Notes under the pieces: model-generated
What the model saw: the letters and a program-made list of their open reading frames with translations, nothing else
What the model was told of the DNA's origin: nothing
Database searches by the model: none
Source: an uncultured Muriicola sp.
GTDB taxonomy: Bacteria > Bacteroidota > Bacteroidia > Flavobacteriales > Flavobacteriaceae
Assembly: GCA_945786965.1 (NCBI GenBank)
Contig: CALZFZ010000043.1
Span: 1-32,956, forward strand
Reading direction: 5' to 3'
DNA: 32,956 nucleotides
Translations under genes and position numbers: made by a program
Part shown: one piece after another, positions 3,206 through 32,956 of the stretch
How positions within the stretch are numbered: position 1 is the stretch's first letter
How the letters are laid out: each line of letters begins with the position of its first letter

Positions 3206-3206
3206 A

Positions 3207-3995: not shown

Positions 3996-4002
3996 AGGTA
4001 GA

Positions 4003-4326: not shown

Positions 4327-4330
4327 AATT

Positions 4331-5164: not shown

Positions 5165-5218
5165 TTCTTAATTCGTATCCTCATCACTAAGATATAAAGA
5201 ATCTGAGGCAAACTATGA

Positions 5219-5249: not shown

Positions 5250-5269
5250 CTGCATATTTTCAAGATCAG

Positions 5270-6628: not shown

Positions 6629-6661
6629 AATTTCGGGAAATAGTTGTCTGGGTATATAGGG

Positions 6662-7105: not shown

Positions 7106-7167
7106 TTCTTTGATTTGATTTTACATAGGAAATGTACATTAAAAATTTTAGTTGTTTATCTTTAGAC

Positions 7168-7866: not shown

Positions 7867-7868
7867 GG

Positions 7869-14081: not shown

Positions 14082-14127
14082 AATGATAAAAATAAACTAT
14101 TTATACGGATGACAATGTTTCAGGTTT

Positions 14128-14135
14128 TAGGTTTG
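14128..14135 (+). promoter_or_regulatory. -7 promoter element for the rhomboid gene
   Basis: TAGGTTTG matches TAnnTTTG exactly, 39 bases before the rhomboid start. No clear TTG lies 17-20 bases upstream, so this is a half-match. Confidence 0.35.
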
Positions 14136-14174
14136 TGGCTGGAAAATTGTAGAAATAATATGTAAATTCAATGT

Positions 14175-14921: not shown

Positions 14922-14926
14922 TCTAG

Positions 14927-15664
14927 TTATACCCTTCGCTGCCTAACCACCTCATATAAAAATACGCCACAGGCCACGGAAACATTTAAAGATTCTATTT
15001 CTCCCAATAATGGAAGCTTTGCTGTATAATCAGCAGCCTTAAGGATGGAAGGTGAGATACCGGCATCCTCGGAACCCATTACAACGGCTACGGCATGGTT
15101 TAAGGGAACATCGTAAAGTACGGTAGTGGTCTTTTCGGTGGCTGCAACGATACGTACTCCGGATGCCTGTAAGTAAAAAATGGCATCTTTAATATGGTCT
15201 ACCTTGGCAATAGGGACCTTAAATGCCGCCCCGGCAGATGTTTTAATGGTATCGGCCGTTACGGGTGCAGCTCCTTTTTTCTGAATAATAATACCATCTA
15301 CTCCGGTGCATTCGGCTGTTCTGATAATGGCACCAAAATTCCGAACATCTGAAAGTTGGTCCAGGAGAAGAAACAGCGGTTCCTTCTTGGTTGCCATCAC
15401 TTTTTCTACAAGTTCTTCAAAATTGTGAAATTGAATAGGTGAAATGGTAGCCACTACCCCTTGATGGTTATTTTGCGAAAGACGATTTATTTTTTCTAAA
15501 GGCACATAGGAGGCGTGGATCCCTTTTTTTCGTATCAAACTTTCCAATTCTTTGGACAAGTCGCCATGCAGTCCTTTTTGAATAAACACTTTATCAATAG
15601 CTTCATTGGAGTTAATGGCTTCAATCACTGCGCGTATTCCGTAAATCTGCGTTGTCTCTTGCAT
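14927..15664 (-). CDS. rlmB: RlmB-type 23S rRNA 2'-O-methyltransferase (SpoU/TrmH family)
   Basis: A 245-residue SPOUT methyltransferase, predicted to methylate the 2'-OH of G2251 (E. coli numbering) in 23S rRNA. There is an N-terminal substrate-binding domain (1-75, including NNHQGVVA at 65-72) and a C-terminal trefoil-knot domain. The knot carries motif 1 NFGAIIRTAE (109-118), motif 2 GSEDAGI (197-203) and motif 3 SLNVSVACGVFLYE (225-238). The NxxGVxA motif before the knot favours RlmB or the related TrmH-type enzymes over TrmL. A -7 box ends only 4 bases upstream of the ATG, so the mRNA may be leaderless. It converges with the rhomboid gene. Confidence 0.92.
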   Translation of the reverse strand: MQETTQIYGIRAVIEAINSNEAIDKVFIQKGLHGDLSKELESLIRKKGIHASYVPLEKINRLSQNNHQGVVATISPIQFHNFEELVEKVMATKKEPLFLLLDQLSDVRNFGAIIRTAECTGVDGIIIQKKGAAPVTADTIKTSAGAAFKVPIAKVDHIKDAIFYLQASGVRIVAATEKTTTVLYDVPLNHAVAVVMGSEDAGISPSILKAADYTAKLPLLGEIESLNVSVACGVFLYEVVRQRRV

Positions 15665-15676: not shown

Positions 15677-15867
15677 ATCAACATTTTGTTCCCTAAACCA
15701 CATTCGTGTTCATCAAAAGGTTAAAGAATAATAATTGCGGTCAACATTGGAATTACTGTGCTTGCACGCATTAGACTTGGAAATTAAGTCAATTGTGTTT
15801 ATAAAAAGAACTTGTGGTTAAGATAATTATCCTTAAATTAAAATTTTTAGTCACTATATTATATCCA

Positions 15868-18156
15868 ATGTCCAAACTATTTTTTTACTTCTTTTTTATC
15901 GTATGTTTTTTAGGAAATGCTCAATTAGCTTTTCAGGAAAATGCCTTAAATCTAGGTGTGGCCCAAAGTTATGGCTCAAGTAATTTAGGAGGAGGAGTAT
16001 CTTTTGTTGATTTTGATAATGATGGATGGGACGATATTACCTTCGCCACCGGGGATAATATGGAAACACTCTTTTTTAAGAATTTAGGCGGTACATTTGT
16101 TCAGGTTGAATTGGGAATTAACGATACTTATGAAACGAAACAAGTTATATGGGTTGATTACGATAACGATGGGGATAAGGATTTTTTTGCCACAAGTATC
16201 ACGGGACTCAATAAGTTTTACCGGAATGAAGGAAATTTAACATTTACAGATATTACAGAGACTACGGGACTATTTACCGAAAATTTGTATACCTATGGGG
16301 CTGCATTCGGAGATATTGATAACGATGGAGATCTGGATATCTTCTTGACTAATCGTGATGTAATAAGCCTGGATCAAAGAAATTATTTATACTTAAATGA
16401 TAATGGCTTTTATGTTGATGTAACGGAAACTGCTGGATTGTTTATGGGGAATGAGTTGTCTTTTTGCGCTTCTTTTTTTGATTATAACAAAGATGGATTA
16501 CAGGATATTTATGTGTCCAACGATAAGTACACCAAAATAAATAGGTTATACAAGAATAACGGCGATAACACCTTCGATGATGTATCTGAAGCCAGTGGTG
16601 CTGGAATGGCTATTGATGCTATGTCTACCACCATAGATGATTATAATGGAGACGGTTGGTTGGATATCTATGTAACCAATACCACAGAAGGAAACTATCA
16701 TTTGCGAAATAATGGGGATGGTACGTTTACGAATGTGGCAGAAGCACTTGGAACAGCCTTCTACAGCATTGCCTGGGGAGCTGTCTTTTTAGATGCAGAG
16801 AACGATGGGGATTTAGATTTGTATGTTAGTGGTATGTTAGACGGATCCAATTCCAGTTTACCATCTGCTTTTTACCAGAATTTAAATGGCTTTTATACTA
16901 TCCCATCAAACATTGGTTTCGATGAGGATACAAGAACAAGTTTTTCCAATGCCATAGGGGATTTTAATAACGATGGCCTTCCGGATATCATCGTAATGAA
17001 CGATACTGAACCTAATTTTCTATGGGAAAATAAAAGCAATACTAATCATAATTGGGTGAAACTAAAATTGGAGGGAACGACAAGTAATCGGGACGGCATA
17101 GGAAGCACCATTGAAATAGTCGCCAATGGGAAATCTCATTTTAGATATACTTTATGTGGTGAAGGATATTTGGGTCAGCATTCAAATATAGAACTTATTG
17201 GTCTATTGAATGCCCCCGTTATAGATTACATTAAGGTCATCTGGCTTAGTGGTATTGAAGATATTATTCAAAATGTAGACGTTAATAAAACATACAAGGT
17301 CATAGAGGGAACTGGAGAAGTGGAGGAAATATTTACAGGGGAAACTCCCTTTGAAGATGAAGATAATGATGGCGTTAGTGATGCCTATGATCTTTGTCCG
17401 GCTACTCCGGATAACACAGTGGTAGATAGTGATGGATGCACCGCTTTCAGTTTACCATCTACAAACTTCCGTATTTTAACTACTTCAGAGTCCTGTGCCT
17501 CGAGTAATAACGGAAGCATACAAATTGAGGTGGTGGAAACTTTGAATTATACTGCCGTATTAACGGGCGTAGGAGTTAATCGAGAAATAACTTTCAATGA
17601 AACTGCACTATTTCAAGATCTTTCATCTGGCAGTTATACCGTTTGTATTACTGTAGAAGGCCAGGTAGATTATGAAATCTGTTTCGATGTGATAATTTCA
17701 GAACCGGAAGACTTATCCGTATCATCGGTCGTTAGCACTTTGGATAATGAGTTGAGTTTAACATTCAAAGGTGCCCGTGAATTTATCATCCACCTCAATC
17801 AAAAGGAATATAGAACTTCTCAAAGCGAAATGAAATTACCATTAGTTCCGGGCACAAACAAGCTATTAGTGAAAACCATTGCAGATTGCCAGGGTACTTA
17901 TGAACAGACTATCTTCATCAATTCTGGAATCATTATATATCCCAATCCATCTCCCGATGGCATTTTTACATTAAACGAAGGTTTTACATCGGAAACAATA
18001 ATAGCACAAGTATTTGACCTTCAAGGACGAAGTCTTGGCACCTATTATATAAGTGAGTCAGGAAAGGTTGATTTGTCTACGCTTGAATCGGGGATGTATC
18101 TAATTAATTTTATAGGACCGGGCTTTGTTTACATCGAAAAACTAATTAAACTTTAA
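15868..18156 (+). CDS. T9SS-secreted FG-GAP/ASPIC-UnbV repeat protein
   Basis: A 762-residue surface or secreted protein. A signal peptide (1-18, ending FLGNAQ) is followed by a beta-propeller of FG-GAP/VCBS repeats with calcium-loop motifs such as DFDNDGWDD at 48-56 (about 45-390). Next come an ASPIC/UnbV domain (about 409-480, starting GIGSTIEIVANGK) and a thrombospondin type 3-like segment (DEDNDGVSDAYDLCPATPDN, from about 497). A beta-sandwich stalk follows (about 525-685), and finally a type IX sorting domain from about 688 (IYPNPSPDG ... GMYLINF ... YIEKLIKL). The protein should cross the outer membrane by the T9SS and remain attached or be released. ATG 15868 is chosen because the signal peptide begins there; an in-frame GTG/ATG-rich extension from 15814 lacks signal character. 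Ligand unknown. Confidence 0.87.
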   Translation: MSKLFFYFFFIVCFLGNAQLAFQENALNLGVAQSYGSSNLGGGVSFVDFDNDGWDDITFATGDNMETLFFKNLGGTFVQVELGINDTYETKQVIWVDYDNDGDKDFFATSITGLNKFYRNEGNLTFTDITETTGLFTENLYTYGAAFGDIDNDGDLDIFLTNRDVISLDQRNYLYLNDNGFYVDVTETAGLFMGNELSFCASFFDYNKDGLQDIYVSNDKYTKINRLYKNNGDNTFDDVSEASGAGMAIDAMSTTIDDYNGDGWLDIYVTNTTEGNYHLRNNGDGTFTNVAEALGTAFYSIAWGAVFLDAENDGDLDLYVSGMLDGSNSSLPSAFYQNLNGFYTIPSNIGFDEDTRTSFSNAIGDFNNDGLPDIIVMNDTEPNFLWENKSNTNHNWVKLKLEGTTSNRDGIGSTIEIVANGKSHFRYTLCGEGYLGQHSNIELIGLLNAPVIDYIKVIWLSGIEDIIQNVDVNKTYKVIEGTGEVEEIFTGETPFEDEDNDGVSDAYDLCPATPDNTVVDSDGCTAFSLPSTNFRILTTSESCASSNNGSIQIEVVETLNYTAVLTGVGVNREITFNETALFQDLSSGSYTVCITVEGQVDYEICFDVIISEPEDLSVSSVVSTLDNELSLTFKGAREFIIHLNQKEYRTSQSEMKLPLVPGTNKLLVKTIADCQGTYEQTIFINSGIIIYPNPSPDGIFTLNEGFTSETIIAQVFDLQGRSLGTYYISESGKVDLSTLESGMYLINFIGPGFVYIEKLIKL

Positions 18157-18630: not shown

Positions 18631-19953
18631 TCATAGTCCAAGGCTTATTATCTCAGGAGCATCTTTGTCATAGTGATATGCACGCCAGAAAAAGCCGGGG
18701 GCACTAAATTTCCAAACAACCTCGCCAGCATCAGTAACTTCCCAGATGCCAAAATCGCCTTCGGTGATCATCCGGTTACCATTGGGTAATTTAACCGCAC
18801 CAGACACTTTTGGGGCAAAGAGATCGGGATCTGTAAAACTCCAAACCACCTCAGGTTCATTATCAGCATTGGGTTGTAACGAAAAGGTGGTGGGTAATTG
18901 CAACTCCAAGGCCGTTGATTGGCCTATGCCATTGCCATTTGTGAAGACCAGGATTTTCCCTTCATCTTCTCCTTTCAATAGATTCGGAAAATGATTGTTG
19001 TGAAAGAGCCGTTCCCCTGCGGTATTGTTATAAGCTTCCGGATTCCCAAACCGATATACTAAATCGCCTCCTTTATTGTATATACCGCCCGAATGTGCAG
19101 CCGCTTCAGAGGTTGTTGTGCTGTGATCGATAACCCAAATTTCACTAAAGTAATTAACGCTCAAGTAGATCAGATCTTTATTTGGGTCGTATGCGATGCC
19201 ATTCGCATGCATAATGTCCCCTTTTTCATCGGAAACATAATTAACGTTGATCAACTGCGGACTCTCTGATACATTCCCAAAATTATTCTTGGTATCATCA
19301 AAATCCTGAATAAGATGATCCCAGGCATGCCATTCCCAGACGATCTCATCAGTGGAAGGGTCGACTTCTATAATGGCTTCCGGGAAGACATCGATTAAGG
19401 AATTGGAACCGGCCGCAGCAGCTTCTTCTGCCGTTCTTTTTTCCCAAACCATCGCCAGCACATTGCCATTGGGCAGTAATTCGGCATCGTGATGTGTTTC
19501 AGCATTTTCGGAGGAATAATTAAAATTCCATTCAATAGTTCCGTCTGCGGCAATAAACTGCAATTTACCCCCTTGGCCACCTAATTCTATTTTGGGATCA
19601 TCGGCTTCAAGGGAAGCCAATATTTTTCCGTTGGGCAACAAAAATGCATCATTTCCCAAATTATTGCTTAAGGTCCATTCATGTACTAGTTGGGCATTTT
19701 TATCCATTATAAAAGCCCTGTTATTACCAGCATCATTGACTAGCACCAAGCCATCATAAATCAATGAAGCATTCAGGATTTCAACCGTATCCATAATAAT
19801 TGGAGGTTCCTCTTCCTCGGGATCTTCGGACTGGGGTTCTTCTTCTATGACGGGATTATCCATGATGGTCTGGAAACCATCATCCTGACTACATGATACA
19901 AAGATCAACAGGATAGTAAAAAAGAATAATATTAGGAGATTTCTACTTTTCAT
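18631..19953 (-). CDS. Arylsulfotransferase (ASST)-family lipoprotein
   Basis: A 440-residue predicted lipoprotein: signal with lipobox ending at Cys21, followed by Ser-Gln-Asp-Asp, a pattern like the Bacteroidota surface-export signal. A Glu/Pro-rich linker (about 33-55) precedes a six-bladed propeller with repeated LPNGN-type turns (106-109, 160-164 and near the C-terminus). Conserved histidines typical of arylsulfotransferase folds are seen in ETHHDAELLPNG (152-163), DIMHANGIAYD (246-256) and LFHNNHFPNLL (316-326). Bacterial ASSTs move sulfate between phenolic compounds without PAPS, but related members are uncharacterised, so enzymatic activity is an inference. It is the last of a minus-strand run below susCD, separated from the next gene by about 200 bases with no recognisable promoter. 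Confidence 0.8.
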   Translation of the reverse strand: MKSRNLLILFFFTILLIFVSCSQDDGFQTIMDNPVIEEEPQSEDPEEEEPPIIMDTVEILNASLIYDGLVLVNDAGNNRAFIMDKNAQLVHEWTLSNNLGNDAFLLPNGKILASLEADDPKIELGGQGGKLQFIAADGTIEWNFNYSSENAETHHDAELLPNGNVLAMVWEKRTAEEAAAAGSNSLIDVFPEAIIEVDPSTDEIVWEWHAWDHLIQDFDDTKNNFGNVSESPQLINVNYVSDEKGDIMHANGIAYDPNKDLIYLSVNYFSEIWVIDHSTTTSEAAAHSGGIYNKGGDLVYRFGNPEAYNNTAGERLFHNNHFPNLLKGEDEGKILVFTNGNGIGQSTALELQLPTTFSLQPNADNEPEVVWSFTDPDLFAPKVSGAVKLPNGNRMITEGDFGIWEVTDAGEVVWKFSAPGFFWRAYHYDKDAPEIISLGL

Positions 19954-20155
19954 TTCCCTTAAATATACTTAGAAATTTCTTGATAAATCGTCATAAGAAG
20001 CTAAATAGATTTACATTAGGTAATTTATATATAGGCTTGGTTAAGATGAGTAAATGTATTTATAAGATATTAAACCGTTAATTTTTAGCGTTTGTTTTTA
20101 TTATAAAAAACCAAGTACTTCAAAGCATTAAATTATACTTTTTAAACGATTTTAG

Positions 20156-20902
20156 CTATTGCTCATTTAGATAATTTATAAGTGCTATTAAATCCTGTTC
20201 TTTCTTGATATCCAATTTATTCTCTTTTATAAATGCTTTTAGATCCATATTGTTATCGACCTTAATAAGTTTAAGAAACTGCCTATTCTTTAAAGGAATC
20301 TCATCTATTCTGTCAATAGAAGCTTTTTGAACGTAATATTCAGTATAATGGCTAAATCTACTTGGTATTGCTTTTACAAAAGAGTTTGCCGCAGGTGAAC
20401 CTTCTGTGAACTTAACGTGTATTCTTTTATAGAGATCGTAGGTTTCACCTTCTGCCAATTGCGTTAAATAGCCATTTAAGGTTCTTCCTTTCAGGTTTAT
20501 AAAAGTCATAAAGCTCATGTGCTTTTCGTTATTCAAAATTTTGATTTTCTTATCTCTTCCTAATGCTCTAATGCCTACCCCCTCAATATTTTGTTCTTTT
20601 ATTTCTATTTCCTCATTTAATGCATTATAACGGTAATAAATCGCTCCAATTTTTTCATCACCATAATAAAGAGTAGTTGATTGAAAATTGTTGGATACAT
20701 AGGGTGTACCCTGGAACTCCTCAGTATTAAAGGAACGCTTGCTCAAAGCATCACGGATTGGACCCAAAAGATTCGCAATGGCCCCGGTACTTCCAGCTGT
20801 CGCACCCCCCTGTGATAAATTGGACGCTACTTGTCCGGAATATTGACCGTGGACTGAACTTACAAAAAGTAGTAAGATAAGAGATGTAAAAATATTTTTC
20901 AT
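20156..20902 (-). CDS. Secreted protein of unknown function
   Basis: A 248-residue protein with a Sec signal (about 1-19, MKNIFTSLILLLFVSSVHG). The mature protein opens with a Gly/Ala/Ser-rich stretch (25-45), then a mixed alpha/beta region with YYGDEKIGAIYYRYN near 79-93 and a run HYTEYYVQKA near 185-194. It ends with a Lys/Asp/Leu-rich helical tail (215-248). No Cys in a lipobox, no enzyme motif and no known domain are recognised. It starts 63 bases below the stop of the giant FG-GAP lipoprotein, so the two may share a transcript; their pairing could be functional. Codon use looks like the neighbours. Confidence 0.7.
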   Translation of the reverse strand: MKNIFTSLILLLFVSSVHGQYSGQVASNLSQGGATAGSTGAIANLLGPIRDALSKRSFNTEEFQGTPYVSNNFQSTTLYYGDEKIGAIYYRYNALNEEIEIKEQNIEGVGIRALGRDKKIKILNNEKHMSFMTFINLKGRTLNGYLTQLAEGETYDLYKRIHVKFTEGSPAANSFVKAIPSRFSHYTEYYVQKASIDRIDEIPLKNRQFLKLIKVDNNMDLKAFIKENKLDIKKEQDLIALINYLNEQ

Positions 20903-20965
20903 ATAATATTTTTATATAGTTATAATTAAAGTTTCCATAAAAATTGTTCGCAAAAAGTAATAAAA

Positions 20966-23900
20966 TTAATCTAATTCAAATGCTAATGGAATGTTATTGT
21001 TTCTTGCAAACAGAAGAATGTTTTTCTCATTATGGGATATTACCTGAAGGTCTTTGATGTTGCCATCTATATACAGACCTGTTTTTAAATACGAAAGCGG
21101 GTAATACCCTTCTAATTTATCGGCAAGTAGTATTAAACCAGAAAAAGCATCTAACCTTGGAGTTTCAACTTCGGTTTCGTAAATGTTTCCTGCTAAAACA
21201 AGATCTTCATAACCATCTTTATTTATATCTAAAGATTTTATGGCCATTATGGGAAACATCTGAGCTTCTTTAGGAAGTGGGATCTTGTCAAAGGTAAAAT
21301 CACCCCTGTTAATTAGCAGTATAGATCTAAATTCTGTTACTTCTTTAGTATAAGATTCATTTAATTTTTCTCCATATACTTCTTCTAAAGAAGCACTGGC
21401 AAATGAACTGTAACTAGGGAATTTTTGCTTGATAAATGGCATTTGTTGTGAGGAACATTCTCGCCCTCTTACGGGCACATAAGCGCCATTGTATTTTTTA
21501 CTTAATACAACGTCGAAAGTACCATTATCATCAAAATCAGCAGCATATACCCTCAATGGTTTTTTTTCATTGGCCTTAAATTTAATATTGAGCCCGGCAT
21601 TACCTAATATATAATCCTTTAATCCATCATTATTTACGTCGGTTTCTGTTATTGAATACCACCATCCTTTTTCATTTAGGATATTCTCCTTATCCATTAT
21701 TTGACGAAAGGTTCCATTATCATTTTTGAAAAAACCAATACTGCTCCATTCTCCTACGGCAATAAAATCTTCCCTACCGTCATTATCAAAATCAGTAGCA
21801 ATAAGTTTGTTAACAATCCCAAAAGTCATCAATTCTGGTGCAATAGAGGACGTCACATCTTCTAAAACGCCGTCTTTGTTTTCATAAATAACTGAAGGCG
21901 TATGTTTAGGATAATTTTTTGGAACAATTCTGTTTCCAACTAAAATATCATTATCACCATCCTGGTCAAAATCCAGAATAGCAACCGATTTACCACTTTT
22001 AGGAAATCGTTCCAAAACACTGCTTTGATATTTTGAGAAGTTTCCTTTACCATCGTTTAAGTAGATCCTGTCTGCGTACAAGGAAGAAAATTCGTCAAAT
22101 TCGTTTCCACCACTTACAACATACAGATCCTGATCCCCATCACCCTCAAAGTCAAAGAATATAGATTCCATATCCTCATATGCCAAATCGTTCTTAAATG
22201 CCTCAATATTGGCTTTTACAAAAGATTTTCCCTTCTGAATATACATTTGACCCGGTTGTCCGGAGGCACCGCCTAAATAAATATCGGTCTTGTTGTCCCC
22301 ATTAACATCGCCTTTGGCAATGAATGGGCCCAGATTAGATTGTTTGTATGGAAGCAATACCTCATTACTAAAATCATCATAAACATTTTCTTTATGTTTA
22401 AAATCAATATGAAGGGTATTTAGATTTAAAGGTTTGAAAAGTGTTTCTAACTTCTTAGAAGTACTCGATAAAGGTTTAGCCTCCTTGCGATCTATAACTA
22501 CTTGAGTATTAGCGGCAATATTATATTTTTCGATGTAATGCCCATCTAACCAATCAACGCGTAAGGTATCTATGACTTCTTCCTTTCCTAAACCAAAATG
22601 GGCACTATTTTCATGAGCGGACATATATCCGCGAACCCTTTTGGTTTCTACCAGTTGTGTTTTACCATTGTAGCGAAGTGTAACCTTTACAAAAGGTTCC
22701 GAATGGCGGCGATCTTGTATGTTTACTTTCAAATAATTACCTAATTCCTTTTCACGTGAGAGATTTTTATAAAGAAAAGCATTATCATCCATATTGTTTA
22801 CTACCAAATCCAGATCACCGTCATTATCTAAATCACCCATGGCAGCACCATTACTAAAAGAAAAATCTCCCAGTCCCCAATCCTCTGCAACATTAGAAAA
22901 ATTTAAATCGCCATTATTCCGATAAAGAATGTTGCTTAGCTTTTCTGAAGGCATTGAATTATACAGGTCTTTTTTTACCTGCAGGGGTACTTGGTTTTTA
23001 TATCGTTGTTTGGCTTCAAATACGCGCATCTGCAGATCATTGTCCAAGGCATATCTTCTGTACCCATTAGTTACATAAATATCTTTAGATTCATCAAGAT
23101 CAAAATCAGACATTAATACGGACCAACTCCAATCTGTATTCGCGGTTTCTGTCAGCTGCGCTATGTTATTGTACTTATTATTGCCAATATTGAGCTGCAA
23201 AGAATTATACATATACTGGTAATGGAAGCCCGCTGTATTCACAAGGTAGTTAAAACGACTAGTATTCATCGATGCCATTAGGGTTTTAGATCTGTAATGA
23301 TCGCTCGAAGCCATATCAAGAACAAAAATATCTTGTAATGCATCATTATTAATATCGGCAATGTCGATGCCCATCCCATAATAGGAGATATGATTTGTGT
23401 AGTCGGCAATTTTATCGGTAAAGGTGTTATCGCCATTATTAATGAAAAGTGCATCCGGGATATAGTAATCACTGGCAATATAAATATACAATGAGCCATC
23501 AGAATTGATATCACTGACCATTAATCCCAAGCCAAATATAGGCCGTTCCAGTCCTGCTACTTTAGTAATATCAGTAAAAACACCATTGTCGTTTCTATAT
23601 AGGTGCGAACTGTTAAAATAGGCGGTTTCGGGATTGTTCTCAATAATTCTGTATAGGTTAATTGGATCTACTCCATACAACTCATTTTCATTCATTACGA
23701 TACAATCCAGATCACCATCATTATCCATATCAAAAAATGCAGATTGGGTGCTTATTCCCATATCTGCCAAGCCATAGTTTTCTGCCTGTTCTGAGAAAGT
23801 CCCATCTTTTTGATTAATAAACAACAGATTTTTTCTTTGTTCTCGTTGTTTTGGTCCTCCCTGGGAGATATAAAAATCCATCCAACCATCTCCATTGATA

Positions 23901-24313
23901 TCAACGAAAGTAATACCATTGGACCAGTTCTTCCCTTGATTTATATTGGAGTTTTCAGTGATATCTTCGAAAACCATTGCGCCTTTGTTCAGAAAAATTT
24001 TGTTTCCTGACTGATTCCCACAAAAAACAACATCTAATAAACCATCATTATTTAAATCTTCAACACCAACACCGGCTCCATTGTAGAAATAGTCAAAATC
24101 GAACAGATTGTCAGGGCTACTAAGGTTTTCCTTAATTTCATTTCTAAATTCAATTTGGCTATAAGAAGCCTCAATTCTTTCAAAAACAGCGGAAGTTTCT
24201 TTGTTATTTGTTTCTGATGAATTAGATGTGGCTATGTTAGGATCTTTATTTTCCTTACAGCTAATAATTAGTAACAGAAGCAGGTAAAATAATCCTAGAG
24301 TATAACTTTTCAT
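20966..24313 (-). CDS. Giant FG-GAP/VCBS and ASPIC-UnbV repeat lipoprotein
   Basis: A 1115-residue predicted lipoprotein with lipobox Cys19 (MKSYTLGLFYLLLLLIISC) and a Ser/Asn/Glu-rich linker. A first FG-GAP propeller spans about 75-505 (calcium-loop motifs such as DLNNDGLLDV at 86-95 and many DxDxDG-like loops). An ASPIC/UnbV domain follows at about 526-608 (GYMSAHENSAHFGLG ... DTLRVDWLDG), then a second propeller from about 640 to the end. Proteins with this layout are frequent neighbours of SusC/SusD pairs in Bacteroidota and are thought to sit on the cell surface; their ligand is not known. ATG 24313 is chosen because the lipoprotein signal starts there and a -7 promoter box overlaps the upstream in-frame ATG at 24343. 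A terminator separates it from the susCD unit. Confidence 0.88.
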   Translation of the reverse strand: MKSYTLGLFYLLLLLIISCKENKDPNIATSNSSETNNKETSAVFERIEASYSQIEFRNEIKENLSSPDNLFDFDYFYNGAGVGVEDLNNDGLLDVVFCGNQSGNKIFLNKGAMVFEDITENSNINQGKNWSNGITFVDINGDGWMDFYISQGGPKQREQRKNLLFINQKDGTFSEQAENYGLADMGISTQSAFFDMDNDGDLDCIVMNENELYGVDPINLYRIIENNPETAYFNSSHLYRNDNGVFTDITKVAGLERPIFGLGLMVSDINSDGSLYIYIASDYYIPDALFINNGDNTFTDKIADYTNHISYYGMGIDIADINNDALQDIFVLDMASSDHYRSKTLMASMNTSRFNYLVNTAGFHYQYMYNSLQLNIGNNKYNNIAQLTETANTDWSWSVLMSDFDLDESKDIYVTNGYRRYALDNDLQMRVFEAKQRYKNQVPLQVKKDLYNSMPSEKLSNILYRNNGDLNFSNVAEDWGLGDFSFSNGAAMGDLDNDGDLDLVVNNMDDNAFLYKNLSREKELGNYLKVNIQDRRHSEPFVKVTLRYNGKTQLVETKRVRGYMSAHENSAHFGLGKEEVIDTLRVDWLDGHYIEKYNIAANTQVVIDRKEAKPLSSTSKKLETLFKPLNLNTLHIDFKHKENVYDDFSNEVLLPYKQSNLGPFIAKGDVNGDNKTDIYLGGASGQPGQMYIQKGKSFVKANIEAFKNDLAYEDMESIFFDFEGDGDQDLYVVSGGNEFDEFSSLYADRIYLNDGKGNFSKYQSSVLERFPKSGKSVAILDFDQDGDNDILVGNRIVPKNYPKHTPSVIYENKDGVLEDVTSSIAPELMTFGIVNKLIATDFDNDGREDFIAVGEWSSIGFFKNDNGTFRQIMDKENILNEKGWWYSITETDVNNDGLKDYILGNAGLNIKFKANEKKPLRVYAADFDDNGTFDVVLSKKYNGAYVPVRGRECSSQQMPFIKQKFPSYSSFASASLEEVYGEKLNESYTKEVTEFRSILLINRGDFTFDKIPLPKEAQMFPIMAIKSLDINKDGYEDLVLAGNIYETEVETPRLDAFSGLILLADKLEGYYPLSYLKTGLYIDGNIKDLQVISHNEKNILLFARNNNIPLAFELD

Positions 24314-24340
24314 AACTGAAAGCATTATTGACCAGAAATG

Positions 24341-24348
24341 CAAAGCTA
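24341..24348 (-). promoter_or_regulatory. -7 promoter element for the giant FG-GAP lipoprotein
   Basis: TAGCTTTG on the minus strand matches TAnnTTTG exactly. The nearest TTG is 23 bases upstream (24372-24374), rather far. Start of transcription would fall near 24335, giving a leader of about 20 bases before ATG 24313 and excluding the ATG at 24343. Confidence 0.45.
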
Positions 24349-24462
24349 CGATTTACTTAAATATTAAAATACAATTATCCTTGCTATTTTATAATCAGAA
24401 GATCCCATATAAAAAATTAGCCATTTAATGCAAGTATTAGGAATGGCTTACAGACAAATAAA

Positions 24463-24493
24463 AAAACGGCCTACTAATTTAGTAGACCGTTTT
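24463..24493 (-). terminator. Rho-independent terminator of the susC-susD-susE-like unit
   Basis: Two 14-base arms pair around a tiny loop: AAAACGG plus CTACTAA on one side and TTAGTAG plus CCGTTTT on the other, with one C/A mismatch. Read on the minus strand, the hairpin is followed by a run of seven T. It lies 24 bases beyond the stop of the SusE-position gene and before the promoter of the next lipoprotein gene. Confidence 0.85.
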
Positions 24494-24516
24494 AATTTTT
24501 ATAGTAATGTATCTAA

Positions 24517-25401
24517 CTAGAGATCTAAAGTAAGATCACAAAAATCAAACATCACTACAGCCGTAGGTGGGGATGGACCTTCATCCAAAACTGTCAATCC
24601 ATTGGCTGATATTACCTGATAGGTATTCTCCGAATCCCAATCACCTTGGTTATATACTATATTTATTTCAACAGCACCTTCTGGTACCTCAAAAGTAAAG
24701 ATTGTTTCCGATCCACCTTCATGTGCATAATCCGTAGATACACCATCAAGAGTTACCGTTATCGATGCGCCATTCCATGAATCCCCATAAGAATCTTGCT
24801 GTGCTATAGTCCACGTTCCAGGTGTTGGCGTAACAGGAGGACATACTACCGTAGCACTATACAAGAATGGTGAACGGAAGAATGAACCCGTTAAGGTACC
24901 TGAATTATCATCATTCGAATATGTTCTTCCGTCTGATAGCACTAGTTCGAATCGAATTCTGAATTGATCACTTCCATTAATATCAGCAGGGTTAACACCG
25001 GTTGCGGTGGCTAAATCCAAATAGTTAGCATTAAAGGTCACTCTAGGCCATCCAAATTCGCCCGTAACAAAATCACTTTTTAAAATTGAACCAACCGAAA
25101 CTTCTGCGACATCACCCGGGCCATCCTCTGGGCTTTCATCTCTAAAACTGTAGAAATAATCGATAGAAGCTACAAGATCACCATCTTCTTGGTCTTGCAT
25201 TTCTAATTCTACAGAGAAAACACCATCAGTAGTACCAATAATAAATTCATCATTAAAAATATTAATGGTTCTTAAGACAGCTCCTCTTTGGACGTCGGCT
25301 TGAACCTGGTCAAAAACCTGATCTCCTTCCTCACAGGCGGCAAATAGCATGACTATTGCTCCTAGTGCGGTACTTAATAATTTATTTACGTACTTCTTCA
25401 T
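24517..25401 (-). CDS. SusE-position surface lipoprotein with DSYGDSWNG domain
   Basis: A 294-residue predicted lipoprotein with lipobox Cys23 followed by Glu-Glu-Gly-Asp, an acidic surface-export-like signal. Residues 30-185 form a beta-rich domain with no named family that I recognise. A C-terminal beta-sandwich (about 195-290) carries W-x-I-x-QQDSYGDSWNGASIT at its start and GLTVLDEGP near its end. The DSYGDxWNG pattern is common in secreted marine Bacteroidota proteins and is presumed to bind a ligand or metal. The gene follows susD by 14 bases and precedes the terminator, the position usually held by SusE/SusF-type binding lipoproteins. Function inferred from position only. Confidence 0.78.
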   Translation of the reverse strand: MKKYVNKLLSTALGAIVMLFAACEEGDQVFDQVQADVQRGAVLRTINIFNDEFIIGTTDGVFSVELEMQDQEDGDLVASIDYFYSFRDESPEDGPGDVAEVSVGSILKSDFVTGEFGWPRVTFNANYLDLATATGVNPADINGSDQFRIRFELVLSDGRTYSNDDNSGTLTGSFFRSPFLYSATVVCPPVTPTPGTWTIAQQDSYGDSWNGASITVTLDGVSTDYAHEGGSETIFTFEVPEGAVEINIVYNQGDWDSENTYQVISANGLTVLDEGPSPPTAVVMFDFCDLTLDL

Positions 25402-25415
25402 TTTTATACAATTTT

Positions 25416-27086
25416 TTAGTTAGCAACTGGAAAAGCAGGGCTTGCTGGATTTGTATCCCAGAAAACCTGTGTGGTCAAAGTTGTCCTTTGCGTCAAATTT
25501 GGATTTGTGATAACTTCATTTTGAGGCAATAAGAATGATCTTGGGAATGGTCCTGGATCTGGTTCCCAGTTGGGAAGCAAAGTGGTTGGATATCCCCTCT
25601 TTCTATAATAGTTATAGGCCTCAGTAGCACCACCGTATAAGGCTATAAAGAATTGCTCTGCAAATATATTTTCTTTATCATCACCTGTAGCAGTGTTAAA
25701 AGCGTCAACAGTATCATCTATGTAAGTAGTAACCTCAGCTGCAGTAGGCTCAAAAGACAAGTCAGCACTACCATCTAAAGATCCAAAACTTTGTACTTTA
25801 GCAATAGATTTCTCCATGCCTGCTCTCATGAAGGTTGCTTTTGCAGCATCACTGGCAGCCATGTCGGCTCTCCAGAAGTCTACATAAGAAGCTAGGATAA
25901 TAGGTTCGATTCCTGCCCCTCCCCCGCCTAGAGCTAGACCTACGTTGCTAAAGGCATCGTCATCAAATCTTCCTCCGGCCGGATAAACACCAACAGCAGT
26001 TCTTAAGAAGTTGTCAGGAGGCGTACCTTCATCATTTCCATGGGTTCTTCCCCAGTAGCCATTTGGCACACTACAGAAGACAAAACCACCATCAATAAAA
26101 TGTTGTGGAGGAACAAAAAGAGAGCAAGATATAGTCTCTTCATCACCTGGAGCATCTGCACCTGGGGTAGCATCTACTTGTCTGTAAAAGTAATACCTGA
26201 TTCTGGGGTCATCCAAGTTCAACATAGCTTCCATGATCCAGTTAGACTGGTAGATGTTCGCACCACTGGGTGTATAATCTGCGGCATAATCAGGATGACG
26301 GGTATCTGGCTGTAATTCGCTGGTACCGTATTGAAATTCAAAGTCATCCGCGCTATCACTAATAAAATTACCAGCGGCAATAGTACTGTTAAAACTAGCA
26401 ACATTATTAGTGGTTTGATAGGCTTTTAAACGTAAGGTATTAATTAATTTTCTCCATTTAGAAGTATCCCCACCATAAAACAAATCGGTAGCCCCTTGTG
26501 TAAGCGGACTCCCAGCAAACAATGATTCAGCTTCATCTAATAATCCAAAAGCTGCGGTATATATTTCCTGACCACTATCTAATAATGGTGCTGGAAATTC
26601 CGCAGGATTAGAAGCCTCGCTAAATGCCGCTTCACCTATATAATCTGCTAACAAGAAAAGCATATGCGCTTTTAAAGTTTGCCCTACCGCTATATGAAAT
26701 GAATAATCAGTATCCGTTTGTTCGTTTATAGCAATAAGGGCGTCTACATTAGTAAACATTCCTACGCTAACACCAGCACCTGGTCCATTTCCACCACTAC
26801 TATAGGTTCTGGACCAAACGCCATTCATGGTAGCTCCCGAATAATTATTAAAATAATCACGACCGAACATATAGTCTATTCGTGTTAATTCTGCTCCTCT
26901 GTCACTCAAGACGCTCTGGTTTGTGGCATAAGCCAATTGTATTGAATTCAATACCAAATTGGGATCTGCCTGATCAGACGCAAGGTCATTAGGACTTACT
27001 TTCAAGTCCAATTCTGTTGTTTCGCAAGCGGTAAATACTCCCCCGGCGATAAACACAACTGTTATGTATTTAATTAATTTTCTCAT
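25416..27086 (-). CDS. susD: SusD/RagB-family nutrient-binding outer-membrane lipoprotein
   Basis: A 556-residue lipoprotein with lipobox Cys21 (FTAC). The mature part begins ETTELDLKVSPNDL, then DPNLVLNSIQLAYA, the typical opening of the SusD-like nutrient-binding group (PF12771/PF12741 type). Helical TPR-like repeats follow, with AHMLFLLADYIGEAAFSEA near 139-157 and SKWRKLINTLRLKAY near 209-223, a SusD signature. It acts as a lid over its SusC partner at the cell surface, binding the substrate before import. The gene is 26 bases after susC and 14 bases before the next lipoprotein gene, so the three form one operon. Members of this group are linked both to glycans and to peptides; the ligand cannot be told from the sequence. 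Confidence 0.93.
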   Translation of the reverse strand: MRKLIKYITVVFIAGGVFTACETTELDLKVSPNDLASDQADPNLVLNSIQLAYATNQSVLSDRGAELTRIDYMFGRDYFNNYSGATMNGVWSRTYSSGGNGPGAGVSVGMFTNVDALIAINEQTDTDYSFHIAVGQTLKAHMLFLLADYIGEAAFSEASNPAEFPAPLLDSGQEIYTAAFGLLDEAESLFAGSPLTQGATDLFYGGDTSKWRKLINTLRLKAYQTTNNVASFNSTIAAGNFISDSADDFEFQYGTSELQPDTRHPDYAADYTPSGANIYQSNWIMEAMLNLDDPRIRYYFYRQVDATPGADAPGDEETISCSLFVPPQHFIDGGFVFCSVPNGYWGRTHGNDEGTPPDNFLRTAVGVYPAGGRFDDDAFSNVGLALGGGGAGIEPIILASYVDFWRADMAASDAAKATFMRAGMEKSIAKVQSFGSLDGSADLSFEPTAAEVTTYIDDTVDAFNTATGDDKENIFAEQFFIALYGGATEAYNYYRKRGYPTTLLPNWEPDPGPFPRSFLLPQNEVITNPNLTQRTTLTTQVFWDTNPASPAFPVAN

Positions 27087-27112
27087 AATTTCTATATCAT
27101 TAACAAATTTTA

Positions 27113-30100
27113 TTAGAATGAAGCTTTAATACTAATTCCATATCTTCTGGAGCTAGGTCCGTTTATGAAATCGAATCCACGACCGTTACCTATACCAACA
27201 CCCTGAACATTAGGATCAAAGTTAGCACCATCAGGCATGTTATAAGCCTCGTACCATAAATTGAAACCTTGTGCTGTAAAAGTCAATGACCCGAATGGTG
27301 TTTTGTCTAAGAATTTAGATGGGACTGAATACCCTAAAGATAATTCTTGTAAACGAATTACAGAAGCATCATAAATTCTAGTCTCAGTAGGTCCAAATAA
27401 CAGGTTGCTAAAGAAATAAGTAGAATTATTGATTTGAGTATTGTTAGTTTCTCCGGTAGATTGATTAACACCAGGAAGCACGTAGGTATTTAACCTATCC
27501 TCAGTTTCTACGATAAGCCCTCTACCTAACAATACTGCAACTGTACTTGATAACATATCACCACCTTTAACATGGTTAATCTGGAAACCAAGACTCCAAT
27601 CCTTGTAACGCAACGTGTTAATGAAATTCATTGTATAATCTGGTATAGCGTCACCAATGATTGGTACATTTCCATCCAGATCTTGTTCTGCAACTACATA
27701 GCTACCACCATTATTTACCAAGAAATTGCCTTGTGCATCTCTTCCGATAGCAGTACCTACTATAGTACCGAGTGATTCTCCTTCTATAGCGGCATTAGAA
27801 CCTCTAAACAGACCGCCACCTACCGCAAGACTACCTGCGTAGGCAATGAAATCCTGGTCTTGTTGGGTAACAACCTCGTTATTGGTGAAGAAATTAACTC
27901 TGGAATTCCAGCTGAAATCACCTCTGAAAATATCAACTCCCAGGTCGGCTTCAAAACCACTGTTTTTAATCTCACCAATATTACTTTGTGTAAAACTAAA
28001 ACCCGTTGACGGAGATAATGGTTCCGTTACAATTAAGTCGTTCGTCCTTCTATCAAAATAGGTAAAATCTAAAGTGATCCTATTTCTCCATATTTTAGAC
28101 TCTAATCCAACTTCAACCTCTTCTAAAAGCTCAGGCTTTAATTGAGGATTGGCACGGAAGTTATCTATTTGGTTGGTAGTTATTTCTCCGCTCTCTCCAT
28201 AAACAACCGTATTCTGTTCTACTACGTTCACTGTAGGATATCCGACAGGGAAGGTAGCTGAAGTACCATAACTAGCCCTCAATTTCAAGAAATTGATTCC
28301 GTTATCGCTTTTTATTCCTTCGAACGCTACAGTAGGAAGGAACGATAAACTAACCCCGGGATACGCTTTGCTGTTATTCTCGGTAGTAAGGTTAGATACC
28401 CAGTCTGTTCTCGCAGAAACATTCAGGAATAACATGTTGTCATAATCTAATGTTGCCTGCCCTAAAATACCCGCAATGTTCCTTTTTCGAGTAAATTGAA
28501 TTGGGGTCTGATTTAGGAAATTAAAGTGTCGTTTTATACCAAAAACAATTTGACCAGAACTAGAAACCCCTTGTCTGTCATACTCATCAGATCTGGAAGT
28601 GGCACCTGCAGTAAACGTAAGGCCTAACTTTTCAGAAAGATCATAATTACCGTTGATTGAGAAAAAGTGCTCCCAGATGGTGTTGTTATTGTCATAAGTG
28701 TCTAAGAACCCAAAAATTGCCGATGTAAATTCTACACCACCTTTGTTAGATCCGTTCACATTGCGTTCATTGTAAAAATCGAGACCTGTTCTCCAGTTAA
28801 TACTAAGATTATCATTTACCTCATAACCTAAATTAGCATTCCAGAAAACTCTGTTCGTTAACTGTTGGTTAGTAACGTTCTTTGCAGTCCAACGCGGGTT
28901 GATAATATCGTTACCGTTACGATAATAAACACTAGAACCATCAATTGGGTTCTCGAAAGGTAGGCCCATTAAGTCTACACTACGAGGTGTAAACAATACG
29001 TTACCATAAACAGAAAGACCATCAGTACCATTACCCCTACTTGATGCAATTGGAGGTGTACGGTAATCTGTTCTGGAGTAGTTCATAGCACCACTAACCG
29101 TAAATTTATTGGATAATTTTGAGCTACCACCTATGGAAAGGTTAGATCTTCTCAAGGAATTGCCAGGAGTAAATCCTTCATCATCTAAATGACCAAAATT
29201 TAAATTAAATGAAGTATTGCCATCAGCTGTACTTCCCGCAACGTTTAATGAAGTATTAATTACGTAGCCTGGTCTGAAGAACTGATCAACTGAATTATAA
29301 GGTTTCCAGGCGTAACGTGCATTTTGCAATTCTGGGAAGGCATCAATAGTTTTTTGAACACTGGTTACTGAATAAGGGTGGTTGATTGTACCGTCATCCG
29401 TAAGTCCCCAACGTTCAGCAAACGCATTTGGGTTACCCCATCCTGCTGGACTGTTTCTTTGGAAACTAGGTCCCCAGTTACTAAAGAACCATCCGAACGC
29501 TTGGTCAAAACCGTTACCATATTCATTTTGATAATCTGGAGCTGAAGCGAACTCATTGGTAAAAAACGACTGGCTGAACGTAATCTCTGTTTTCTTTGCA
29601 CCAGTTGTAGCAGCGCCAGCGCCAGCTTTGGTAGTAATTAATATTACCCCGTTTTTACCCTGAGTACCATACAATGTTGCCGCAGCCAAACCTTTAAGTA
29701 CTTCTACACTGGCAATGTTATTTGGATCTATATCTAAGAAACGAGAAGATCCGGTATTACCACCAATAAAGCTTCCAGTGTCATTGGTATCATTGCTAAA
29801 TGGAACACCATCTACTATAAATAGCGCCTGGTTACTTCCACTAAAGGAACTTAAACCTCTAATTGTAACGTTGGTTGCAGACCCAGAAGCACCACCGGCG
29901 GCGGTAATTTGAACCCCAGCGGCTTTACCAGCAAGAACCCTTGCAACATCCCCTTCTGTCCTTTGCTCTAATTGATCGGCACCTACGGAAGTTACAGCAT
30001 ATCCTAATGCTTTCTTTTCACGCTTAATACCTTGGGCAGTTACTATTACCTCTTCTAATGCCTGAGCATCTTCCAGCATTTGCACATTGATGGTGTCTGA

Positions 30101-30361
30101 TGCGCCAATAGTAACCTGTACATCTTTTTGACCTATGTACGAAAACAGCAGAGTCTGACCTTCAGTACCCCTTATTGAGTAATTTCCATCGAAATCAGTT
30201 TGGGTACCTGTAGTAGTTCCTTCCACAACGATGTTTACACCGGGTAATGGAAGACCTGCTTGGTCAGTTACCGTACCTGAAATCGTCTTCTCCTGCGCAA
30301 ATGATAAATGCACAACAAACGCCAATAATAGCGTCAAGATTCCATTTAAATTTGTTCTCAT
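27113..30361 (-). CDS. susC: SusC/RagA-family TonB-linked outer-membrane transporter
   Basis: A 1082-residue TonB-dependent transporter. In order it has a signal peptide (1-22, ending SFAQ), an N-terminal carboxypeptidase-regulatory-like domain (26-95, with GVNIVVEGTTTGTQTDFDGNY), and a TonB-box-like EEVIVTA at 103-109. The plug domain (about 115-245) contains LFIVDGVPF at 180-188 and YGTQGKNGVILITTK near 228-242. A large barrel follows and ends RRYGISIKASF with terminal Phe. It imports the ligand captured by the SusD lid using TonB energy. No anti-sigma-factor STN domain is present, so it is not directly a signal transducer. The start is followed by a classic signal peptide; a -7 promoter box lies 56 bases upstream. 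Confidence 0.96.
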   Translation of the reverse strand: MRTNLNGILTLLLAFVVHLSFAQEKTISGTVTDQAGLPLPGVNIVVEGTTTGTQTDFDGNYSIRGTEGQTLLFSYIGQKDVQVTIGASDTINVQMLEDAQALEEVIVTAQGIKREKKALGYAVTSVGADQLEQRTEGDVARVLAGKAAGVQITAAGGASGSATNVTIRGLSSFSGSNQALFIVDGVPFSNDTNDTGSFIGGNTGSSRFLDIDPNNIASVEVLKGLAAATLYGTQGKNGVILITTKAGAGAATTGAKKTEITFSQSFFTNEFASAPDYQNEYGNGFDQAFGWFFSNWGPSFQRNSPAGWGNPNAFAERWGLTDDGTINHPYSVTSVQKTIDAFPELQNARYAWKPYNSVDQFFRPGYVINTSLNVAGSTADGNTSFNLNFGHLDDEGFTPGNSLRRSNLSIGGSSKLSNKFTVSGAMNYSRTDYRTPPIASSRGNGTDGLSVYGNVLFTPRSVDLMGLPFENPIDGSSVYYRNGNDIINPRWTAKNVTNQQLTNRVFWNANLGYEVNDNLSINWRTGLDFYNERNVNGSNKGGVEFTSAIFGFLDTYDNNNTIWEHFFSINGNYDLSEKLGLTFTAGATSRSDEYDRQGVSSSGQIVFGIKRHFNFLNQTPIQFTRKRNIAGILGQATLDYDNMLFLNVSARTDWVSNLTTENNSKAYPGVSLSFLPTVAFEGIKSDNGINFLKLRASYGTSATFPVGYPTVNVVEQNTVVYGESGEITTNQIDNFRANPQLKPELLEEVEVGLESKIWRNRITLDFTYFDRRTNDLIVTEPLSPSTGFSFTQSNIGEIKNSGFEADLGVDIFRGDFSWNSRVNFFTNNEVVTQQDQDFIAYAGSLAVGGGLFRGSNAAIEGESLGTIVGTAIGRDAQGNFLVNNGGSYVVAEQDLDGNVPIIGDAIPDYTMNFINTLRYKDWSLGFQINHVKGGDMLSSTVAVLLGRGLIVETEDRLNTYVLPGVNQSTGETNNTQINNSTYFFSNLLFGPTETRIYDASVIRLQELSLGYSVPSKFLDKTPFGSLTFTAQGFNLWYEAYNMPDGANFDPNVQGVGIGNGRGFDFINGPSSRRYGISIKASF

Positions 30362-30840: not shown

Positions 30841-31215
30841 ATGCCAACAATTTCACAATTAGTACGAAAAGGAAGGGCCACAATTACCAAGAAGAGTAAA
30901 TCGGCTGCTTTGGATTCGTGTCCCCAGCGACGGGGGGTTTGTACGCGTGTTTATACCACAACACCAAAAAAACCAAACTCGGCTATGAGAAAAGTAGCAA
31001 GGGTTAGGTTAACCAATGGTAAAGAGGTAAACGCATACATCCCCGGAGAAGGGCACAATTTACAAGAGCACTCGATAGTATTGGTTAGAGGCGGAAGGGT
31101 GAAGGATTTGCCAGGAGTTAGATATCACATCGTGAGAGGAGCTCTGGATACTGCAGGTGTAGCCGGCAGAACCCAGAGACGATCTAAATACGGAGCAAAA
31201 AGACCCAAAAAGTAA
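30841..31215 (+). CDS. rpsL: 30S ribosomal protein S12
   Basis: A 124-residue S12, full length, central to decoding at the ribosomal A site. It shows [25 protein letters not shown]-type core sequence, with the PKKPNSA loop at 42-48 and [13 protein letters not shown] at 84-96. Lys43, Lys88 and Pro91 have the ordinary streptomycin-sensitive identity, and Asp89 is the residue that is methylthiolated in many bacteria. It is the first gene of the str operon, directly behind a good promoter and followed by rpsG after 22 bases. Confidence 0.99.
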
Positions 31216-31237
31216 TCAAAACTTTTAAGCAGAAGCA

Positions 31238-31714
31238 ATGAGAAAAAGACAGGCAAAGAAAAGACCGCTTTTACCAGATCCGAGATTTAACGACCAGCTG
31301 GTAACCCGTTTTGTAAACATGATGATGTGGGACGGGAAAAAGTCGGTAGCCTTTAAAGTTTTCTACGATGCCATTGACATTGTAGACGAAAAGAAAACAG
31401 ACGAAGAAAAAACGGCACTGGAATTATGGAAAGACGCCCTTTCTAATGTGATGCCTCACGTAGAAGTGAGAAGCAGACGGGTTGGGGGAGCTACGTTTCA
31501 AATTCCTATGCAAATTAGGCCAGACCGTAAGATCTCTACGGCTATGAAATGGTTGATCAATTTTTCCAGGAAGCGTAACGAGAAATCTATGGCTCAAAAG
31601 CTTGCAGGTGAAATATTGGCAGCATCCAAAGAGGAAGGCGCAGCTGTTAAGAAAAGAGTGGATACCCACAAAATGGCAGAAGCAAACAAAGCATTTTCCC
31701 ACTTTAGATTTTAA
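31238..31714 (+). CDS. rpsG: 30S ribosomal protein S7
   Basis: A 158-residue S7, the primary binder that nucleates assembly of the 30S head on 16S rRNA. The start [19 protein letters not shown], the [10 protein letters not shown] segment (28-37), [16 protein letters not shown] (75-90) and the C-terminal [15 protein letters not shown] are all standard. Length is normal for Bacteroidota. It lies between rpsL and fusA with short gaps (22 and 9 bases), the canonical str operon order. Confidence 0.99.
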
Positions 31715-31723
31715 TTATCAGGA

Positions 31724-32956
31724 ATGGCAAGAGATTTAAAATACACAAGAAATATAGGGATCGCAGCCCACATAGACGCGGGTAAGACCACAACTACAGA
31801 ACGTATTCTTTTTTATACTGGCGTAAGCCATAAGATGGGTGAGGTTCATGATGGTGCGGCTACGATGGACTGGATGGAACAGGAACAGGAGCGTGGAATT
31901 ACCATTACCTCTGCGGCTACTACATGTACCTGGAATTTCCCAATGAAGAATGGTGAGATCATTCCAGAATCTAAACCTTACCATTTTAATATTATTGACA
32001 CCCCCGGACATGTAGATTTTACCGTTGAGGTAAACAGATCTTTGCGTGTATTAGATGGGTTGGTGTTCCTTTTTAGTGCTGTTGATGGGGTTGAACCTCA
32101 ATCTGAAACTAACTGGCGATTGGCAGATAATTACAAAGTCCCAAGAATGGGCTTTGTAAATAAAATGGACAGACAGGGTTCTAACTTCTTAAATGTATGT
32201 AAGCAGGTTAGGGAAATGTTGAAATCGAATGCGGTTCCAATTGTATTGCCAATAGGAGATGAGGCCGATTTTAAAGGTATCGTTGACCTTGTTAAAAATC
32301 GTGCCATTGTTTGGCATGAAGATAACATGGGATCTACTTTTGATGTAGTTGATATTCCTGCTGAGATGGAGGCTGAGGTAAAAGAATGCCGTGCAGCCCT
32401 TATTGAGGCAGTTGCAGAATATGATGAAACCTTGATGGAGAAGTTCTTTGAAGATGAGGAATCTATTACAGAAGACGAAGTGCATGCAGCCTTAAGAGCG
32501 GCAGTTATGGATATGAGCATCATTCCGATGATCTGTGGATCCTCTTTTAAAAATAAGGGAGTTCAGTTTTTGTTAGATGCAGTATGCCGTTACCTTCCTT
32601 CTCCTATGGATAAAGAGGGTATTGTAGGGATCAACCCTGATACCGGGAAAGAAGAAAGAAGAAAACCAGATATTAAAGAGCCGTTTGCCGCACTTGCCTT
32701 TAAAATTGCAACGGATCCGTTTGTTGGTCGTTTGGCCTTTTTTAGGGCATATTCAGGAAAACTGGATGCAGGGTCCTATGTATTGAACAACAGATCTGGC
32801 AATAAGGAACGAATTTCAAGAATTTATCAAATGCATTCTAACAAACAGAATGCAGTTGCCTCTATTGCTGCCGGAGATATTGGAGCAGCCGTAGGTTTTA
32901 AAGATATTAAAACAGGAGATACCTTATCGGATGAAAAACACCCGATAGTACTGGAA
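31724..32956 (+). CDS. fusA: Elongation factor G (5' part, cut by the window edge)
   Basis: The first 411 codons of a translational GTPase that drives ribosome translocation; no stop codon occurs before the end of the window. G motifs are AHIDAGKTT at 15-23, the switch I region with [10 protein letters not shown] (57-66), DTPGH at 92-96 and NKMD at 146-149. These are followed by the G' insertion and the beginning of domain II ([20 protein letters not shown]). The insertion between switch I and DTPG ([18 protein letters not shown]) is slightly longer than in E. coli, as in other Bacteroidota. The start [13 protein letters not shown] follows rpsG by 9 bases. Confidence 0.98.

Follow-up and report, generated by a model that had tools for sequence, protein, structure and literature searches.

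What does a SusC/SusD uptake locus import when no degradative enzyme accompanies it, and do the envelope genes around it form a single system? Such a locus lies in a 32,956-nucleotide stretch of DNA (the window) from a marine flavobacterium of the genus Muriicola, whose draft genome comprises 2.39 Mb in 214 contigs and is 80% complete. The explanation that we favor, and regard as rather likely, is that it represents an rpsL-linked SusCDE locus of Flavobacteriaceae related to the BT2261-2264 importer, and probably the counterpart of Fjoh_0403-0405 in F. johnsoniae.

Gene content of the locus and its chromosomal slot

The six minus-strand envelope genes proposed by the sequence-only reading are all present as open reading frames at the positions given (Table 1). 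The SusC protein scores 540.5 bits against TIGR04056 (cut-off 368.25), with PF07715 and PF13715 also above cut-off, and SusD scores 118 bits against the SusD-like_2 family PF12771 (cut-off 27). Similar to RagAB-type SusCD importers, the pair thus combines a barrel with a plug and a carboxypeptidase-like N-terminal domain with an adjacent SusD-family lipoprotein. The propeller lipoprotein contains nine FG-GAP_3 stretches and UnbV_ASPIC in Pfam; TTG is the first start codon of its ORF, and ATG starts further in are possible. The arylsulfotransferase-like (ASST) protein matches PF05935 with 71.2 bits (cut-off 24.2) and also passes PF14269, while neither P2 (248 aa) nor the SusE-position protein (294 aa) matches any family above cut-off. 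By pattern search alone, lipobox-like cysteines were found at position 21 of SusD, 23 of SusE, 29 of the FG-GAP protein and 21 of ASST, and none in P2.

Table 1. Features of the locus and the borders of its slot (window coordinates)
Feature	Coordinates	Strand	Basis
susC, SusC/RagA-type TonB-dependent transporter, BT_2264 (Omp121) type	27113..30361	-	TIGR04056; clade profile
susD, lid lipoprotein	25416..27086	-	PF12771; lipobox-like Cys21
susE-position lipoprotein, C-terminal DSYGDSWNGA-like stretch	24517..25401	-	Homologues behind susD; alignment
Intrinsic terminator, 14 pairs, 3' of susE	24463..24493	-	Hairpin search
Two-propeller FG-GAP/ASPIC lipoprotein (cargo)	20966..24343	-	FG-GAP_3, UnbV_ASPIC
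P2, putative secreted protein (cargo)	20156..20902	-	Homologues in slot loci; tandem copies in relatives
ASST-like lipoprotein (cargo)	18631..19953	-	PF05935
FG-GAP/ASPIC protein with T9SS sorting tail, within slot, convergent to ASST	15814..18156	+	Pfam
Slot border 1: rpsL, rpsG, fusA (fusA truncated at window end)	30841..32956	+	Pfam; conserved border
Slot border 2: SpoU/TrmH-type methylase (-), rhomboid (+), RarA-type ATPase (-)	12804..15664		Conserved border

The Pfam scan covered 26 of the 28 non-overlapping window ORFs of at least 90 aa (the other two encode 118 and 120 aa), and among these 26 none matched a glycoside hydrolase, lyase, sulfatase or regulator family, in agreement with the earlier description of a susCD locus without degradative enzymes or a regulator. 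Peptidase families beside the locus were likewise not matched. A canonical polysaccharide utilization locus (PUL) shares with the window a susCD pair and surface lipoproteins, whereas the window has no CAZyme or regulator that we found and occupies a fixed genomic position. Neither the Rfam nor the tRNA scan of the window gave a hit, and the flavobacterial promoter motif TANNTTTG was uninformative (43 matches versus 39 expected). For the second FG-GAP/ASPIC gene, on the plus strand, none of the loci compared yielded a match covering 80% of its length. Elsewhere in the same genome (L130, contig C36, positions 2378-8109), a P2 paralogue stands behind a 1427-aa protein resembling this second FG-GAP protein, and a similar set adjoins another susC in genome G001 (L135).

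The neighbors of the locus are housekeeping genes. The window susC is divergent to the rpsL-rpsG-fusA genes, and the methylase, rhomboid and RarA-type ATPase genes and a DUF5723 gene lie past ASST on the other side. We searched 60 genomes for rpsL, found it in 57, that of the window among them, and read the region upstream of it. Among 37 genomes of the same family, 34 were testable (rpsL was not found in G007 and G011, and the contig ends in G023), and susC is next to rpsL in 31 of them; the three others are G024, where the contig ends 3.2 kb past rpsL, G030 and G031. None of the 22 genomes from other families has susC beside rpsL, five of these having less than 1.6 kb of readable upstream sequence and the remaining 17 at least 10 kb. 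The locus therefore occupies one chromosomal slot, from rpsL to trmH/rhomboid/rarA, in most tested members of the family. In some loci (L153, L156, L159 and L170) the slot carries two or three tandem copies of susC. A partial literature search, judged by title and abstract start, returned no paper on point for rpsL or fusA with SusC/SusD or for FG-GAP/ASPIC with SusD, and no paper on arylsulfotransferase with SusC, SusD or Bacteroidetes.

Two assemblies deserve a comment. In G003, rpsL occurs three times (contigs C48, C61 and C69) and the slot in two types, so this assembly probably represents mixed strains. A Flavobacteriaceae slot locus is also present in PBYI01000032.1 (L254), a Nocardioides MAG according to its title, and the bin is therefore probably contaminated.

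In 17 family loci, rpsL is separated from susC, or from the border, by a gene homologous to POTRA/Omp85 proteins (TamA-like). The domains were confirmed by Pfam in three of these 17 loci, and by eye the N-termini resemble ordinary signal peptides. Such a gene is missing from the window, and no match was found at E 1e-15 in nine genomes of its genus. The F. johnsoniae protein Fjoh_0402 is TamA-like and, according to the available part of the source, combines three POTRA domains and a barrel of 16 strands with an SPI signal peptide (PMC12045153). Fjoh_0403, Fjoh_0404 and Fjoh_0405 assemble into a SusC-SusD-SusE complex that is in the top two of the outer-membrane components of this species by abundance and whose function is described as unknown in the accessible text (PMC12611786). 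As far as locus tags in these partial sources give the order, Fjoh_0402-0405 follow the same succession of TamA-like, SusC, SusD and lipoprotein genes as the 17 loci (e.g., L121, L122 and L126) (PMC12045153, PMC12611786). The window has the same SusC-SusD-SusE composition as the F. johnsoniae complex but lacks the Omp85 gene and has cargo genes added. By this analogy of gene order and composition, the slot susCDE genes may be orthologous to Fjoh_0403-0405. BamG and BamH were also considered for this locus and were ruled out, being Fjoh_1412 and Fjoh_0823 in the portion of the source at hand.

The susCDE unit and its optional cargo

The sequence-only reading had treated the six genes as one functional set. 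We compared gene order in loci fetched with the SusD alignment, namely the best 80 SusD matches listed, a sample that leans to the window's type because it consists of the best SusD matches and in which some loci repeat genomes of the main set (L279 is G006 and L266 is G020). Among these 80, susD is followed by a susE homologue in 62 of 63 slot loci, with the remaining one cut by the contig end, and in all 57 slot loci whose far border is visible. In the same 57 loci, again among the best 80 matches, P2 occurs in 43, FG-GAP in 30 and ASST in 19; at least one of these cargo genes is present in 45, all three in only 12, and their order differs between loci. One locus with FG-GAP and two P2 genes (L235) was missed in this tally, which is left as printed. 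The check for conserved co-occurrence of P2 and ASST with susCD is thus positive for many relatives in the list, and a single six-gene set, as originally proposed, is not supported.

The other 17 of the 80 rows lie off the slot or could not be placed in it: six are on short or cut contigs, one is L228, and ten are off-slot susCD loci (L233, L236, which is cut upstream, L285, L287-L290, L296, L302 and L303). P2 and ASST are found in none of these ten, and an FG-GAP gene, on the opposite strand, in one. In L228 all three cargo genes sit amid other susC genes, with neither border visible. Within the susD-trmH interval of the named slot loci from the same list, 182 of 187 ORFs are homologues of slot or border genes and five are not. 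Among the other slot ORFs given to Pfam, the sole enzyme-like match besides ASST is an alpha/beta hydrolase (Peptidase_S9/DLH), encoded together with a PKD/T9SS protein in L152 (7538-11071, minus strand).

A hairpin followed by a T-run was detected behind 70 of 82 susE genes, compared with a rate of 0.005 in mononucleotide shuffles; its sequence differs between species, and it is present off the slot too. The corresponding counts are 1/83 for susD and 0/41 for FG-GAP (stretches that are largely coding), 40/78 for P2, 3/25 for ASST and 1/55 for trmH. In the window, this terminator separates susE from the FG-GAP gene. Measured against rpsL, rpsG and fusA, the codon adaptation of susC lies above the median of its neighbors in 42 of 49 loci, that of susD in 39 and that of susE in 35; the respective values for the cargo are 20/40 (P2), 8/30 (FG-GAP) and 5/17 (ASST). 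In the window itself, FG-GAP ranks first and susC sixth of 24, a modest signal for susC. The terminator behind susE, the variable cargo and the codon adaptation together suggest that susCDE is a well-expressed unit, presumably at a high level, and that the rest is separate: FG-GAP, P2 and ASST look like optional, reordered cargo.

In an indicative sample of 45 hand-picked places, at least 32 FG-GAP genes follow a listed SusC in the same orientation, and in Altibacter, Gilvibacter and Dokdonia (L266, L267, L268, L270 and L275) an FG-GAP gene stands past rarA, outside the slot yet close to it. P2 occurs in tandem copies in relatives, and in L242 and L300 arrays of P2-like genes in reverse orientation were observed between rpsL and susC, at the opposite slot end. 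An AlphaFold2 model of P2 has a mean pLDDT of 80; Foldseek gave no hit at E of 0.001 or below, the best VIA Z was 3.8, and P2 was given no fold assignment.

Allele exchange between genera at the slot

We compared the best percent identity of each window protein within Muriicola and outside it, among the loci compared. The flanking proteins are closest to the genus: fusA 97 within versus 92 outside, RarA 88 versus 84, rhomboid 77 versus 70 and DUF5723 82 versus 61; rpsG (96 and 96) and trmH (80 and 81) do not discriminate. The slot proteins behave in the opposite manner, with 60 within versus 83 outside for SusC, 49 versus 76 for SusD, 41 versus 51 for SusE and 40 versus 59 for P2. The FG-GAP protein has no full-length match in the Muriicola loci compared and reaches 66% outside the genus, its slot homologues in other genera being 56-66% identical, whereas ASST again follows the genus (75 versus 69).

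When three flank proteins were used to build a tree, seven of the eight Muriicola rows clustered, and the eighth, from the probably mixed genome G003, joins Poritiphilus beside them. The SusC tree needs four origins for the same eight rows, two of which rest on the long rows G002 and G003b. With these two left out, the AU test rejects a single SusC clade for the window and its five genus mates (p 1.9e-32); for all eight rows as one clade the value is p 6.6e-6, and a single clade of four close Maribacter SusC rows is also rejected (p 1.8e-35), the tested groups having been picked after the trees were seen. Since the window susCDE, FG-GAP and P2 are nearest to other genera, and most flanks and ASST are nearest to Muriicola, we conclude that susC alleles have been exchanged between genera at the slot. 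The wider proposal, that the slot is a family-wide, serotype-like exchange site at which whole susCDE alleles and movable lipoproteins are swapped between genera by recombination in the flanks while the chromosome around stays unchanged, may hold, and we consider the case for and against it evenly balanced.

The replacement of SusC alleles at one site in both Muriicola and Maribacter also fits a slot that works chiefly as a cassette for surface variation, under pressure from phages or bacteriocins with an abundant SusC as their receptor, and with nutrient range secondary. Adaptation to diet would account for the exchange equally well, and we hold this possibility to be unlikely as the main explanation, although it is compatible with the favored reading of the locus as a relative of the BT2261-2264 importer.

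Transporter type, probable ligand and alternative explanations

In the phylogeny of SusC, built from 36 slot and 33 other sequences, a fully supported branch sets 32 slot rows and two others apart from the rest. The four slot sequences that fall among ordinary SusC comprise three from tandem sets and one (G018) that is the sole susC of its slot. Searched against solved SusC chains, a profile of the window's subclade scores 521 bits with BT_2264 and 260 with the next chain, and a profile of the other slot subclades 872 versus 390. A control profile of 13 non-slot SusC from the same genomes, biased to the canonical type because mostly best-scoring TIGR04056 members were used, gives 1003 bits for 8aa4, presumably a levan importer, 615 for RagA and 374 for BT_2264, which ranks ninth of 11. 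RagAB, also a peptide importer of solved structure, shows no particular closeness to the profile of the window's subclade. The result for SusD is different: BT_2263 ranks only 16th of 26 chains with 91 bits, and the best chain is 5j5u. Of the placement of both proteins relative to characterized importers, the SusC part thus points to BT_2264, and the SusD part does not favor BT_2263.

According to the accessible text of two sources, the substrates that BT2263-64 takes up are oligopeptides (PMC10132118, PMC7782687). The window resembles BT2261-2264 of B. thetaiotaomicron in its SusC type and differs in a SusD that is not near BT_2263, a SusE-position protein without an assigned family, and the presence of FG-GAP, P2 and ASST. 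One slot locus, L159, shares more: behind susCD it encodes lipoproteins like BT_2262 (E 1.2e-12) and BT_2261 (4e-24), and the same two families recur behind a second susCD pair. Such lipoproteins have no match in the window and were found only in other slot subclades. The slot of L170 holds one Lipid_bd (PF12888) and one Ig-like lipoprotein.

A non-glycan ligand, as the sequence-only reading had suggested, is likely, given that the slot SusC profile is nearest BT_2264 and the control profile is not. A SusC inside a glycan-specific clade with CAZymes just outside was not what we found, as SusC is nearest BT_2264 and the flanks carry ribosomal and housekeeping genes. From sequence comparison, our best guess is that the ligand would be an oligopeptide or another non-glycan compound taken up by TonB-dependent import; for an oligopeptide specifically, the chances appear about equal either way. 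By homology with the standard SusCD model, SusC would form the barrel powered by TonB, with SusD as the lid and SusE as a partner at the surface. Uptake by susCDE would then begin with capture of the ligand outside the cell by SusD and SusE above the SusC barrel, after which the lid would close and TonB would drive release into the periplasm. The FG-GAP propeller and ASST may assist outside the cell, at lower copy, by binding or modifying either the ligand or groups on the surface.

Split PULs exist, and the locus could be a glycan uptake system with its enzymes encoded elsewhere, the more so as the susD profile ranks the glycan-binding proteins 7nox, 6dmf and AqSusD above BT_2263. We consider this unlikely, since the slot SusC favors BT_2264 two to one and the ordinary SusC of the same genomes do not, nearly all ORFs of the susD-trmH interval in the named slot loci among the best 80 matches belong to slot or border families, and the L152 hydrolase is the sole enzyme-like match besides ASST among the other slot ORFs in Pfam. 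The BT_2261- and BT_2262-like genes in the slot lower the probability of a split PUL further and raise that of a peptide ligand.

Less probable still is that the six genes form one pathway for sulfated aromatics, in which ASST transfers sulfate and SusCD imports the product. In a weak match (E 2e-4) to E. coli AssT (3elq), which shares PF05935, the window ASST has H249, N251 and H321 as the equivalents of H356, N358 and H436. We take His436 of AssT to be catalytic and H356, N358 and R374 to have active-site roles; entry 4p04 has Asn at position 436. The retained residues, the recurrence of ASST in the 19 slot loci counted above among the best 80 matches, and a long form with a T9SS tail (Pfam) in L121 speak for such a pathway. 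Nevertheless, the R374 equivalent is Asn in all eight short forms aligned (and Arg in both long forms), so that the window protein, a putative 440-aa lipoprotein, departs from AssT at this position. Furthermore, the majority of slot loci that share this SusC type have no ASST, the terminator stands between it and susCDE, and its nearest relatives are not those of susCD. The earlier proposals of a sulfated phenolic or cofactor-like ligand lose their footing here, as they lean on an optional cargo gene with a replaced active-site Arg.

The last alternative, that the window is a misassembly of two organisms and its allele mismatch false, gains a little from the fragmented draft and the non-discriminating rpsG and trmH and is very improbable, since fusA, rarA and DUF5723 on both flanks as well as ASST match the genus with a foreign block between, which would need two wrong joins, and Maribacter, isolates included, has an equal mismatch.

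The favored reading of the slot locus as a BT2261-2264 relative bears on the F. johnsoniae SUS complex, for which placement by gene order in a conserved slot with a BT_2264-type SusC would suggest a ligand class. The slot also offers dozens of natural susCDE alleles for comparison. If the exchange between genera is true, a principal surface pore in this large family of bacteria would be modular, which bears on diet, on phage range and on how well a susCD pair predicts glycan use.
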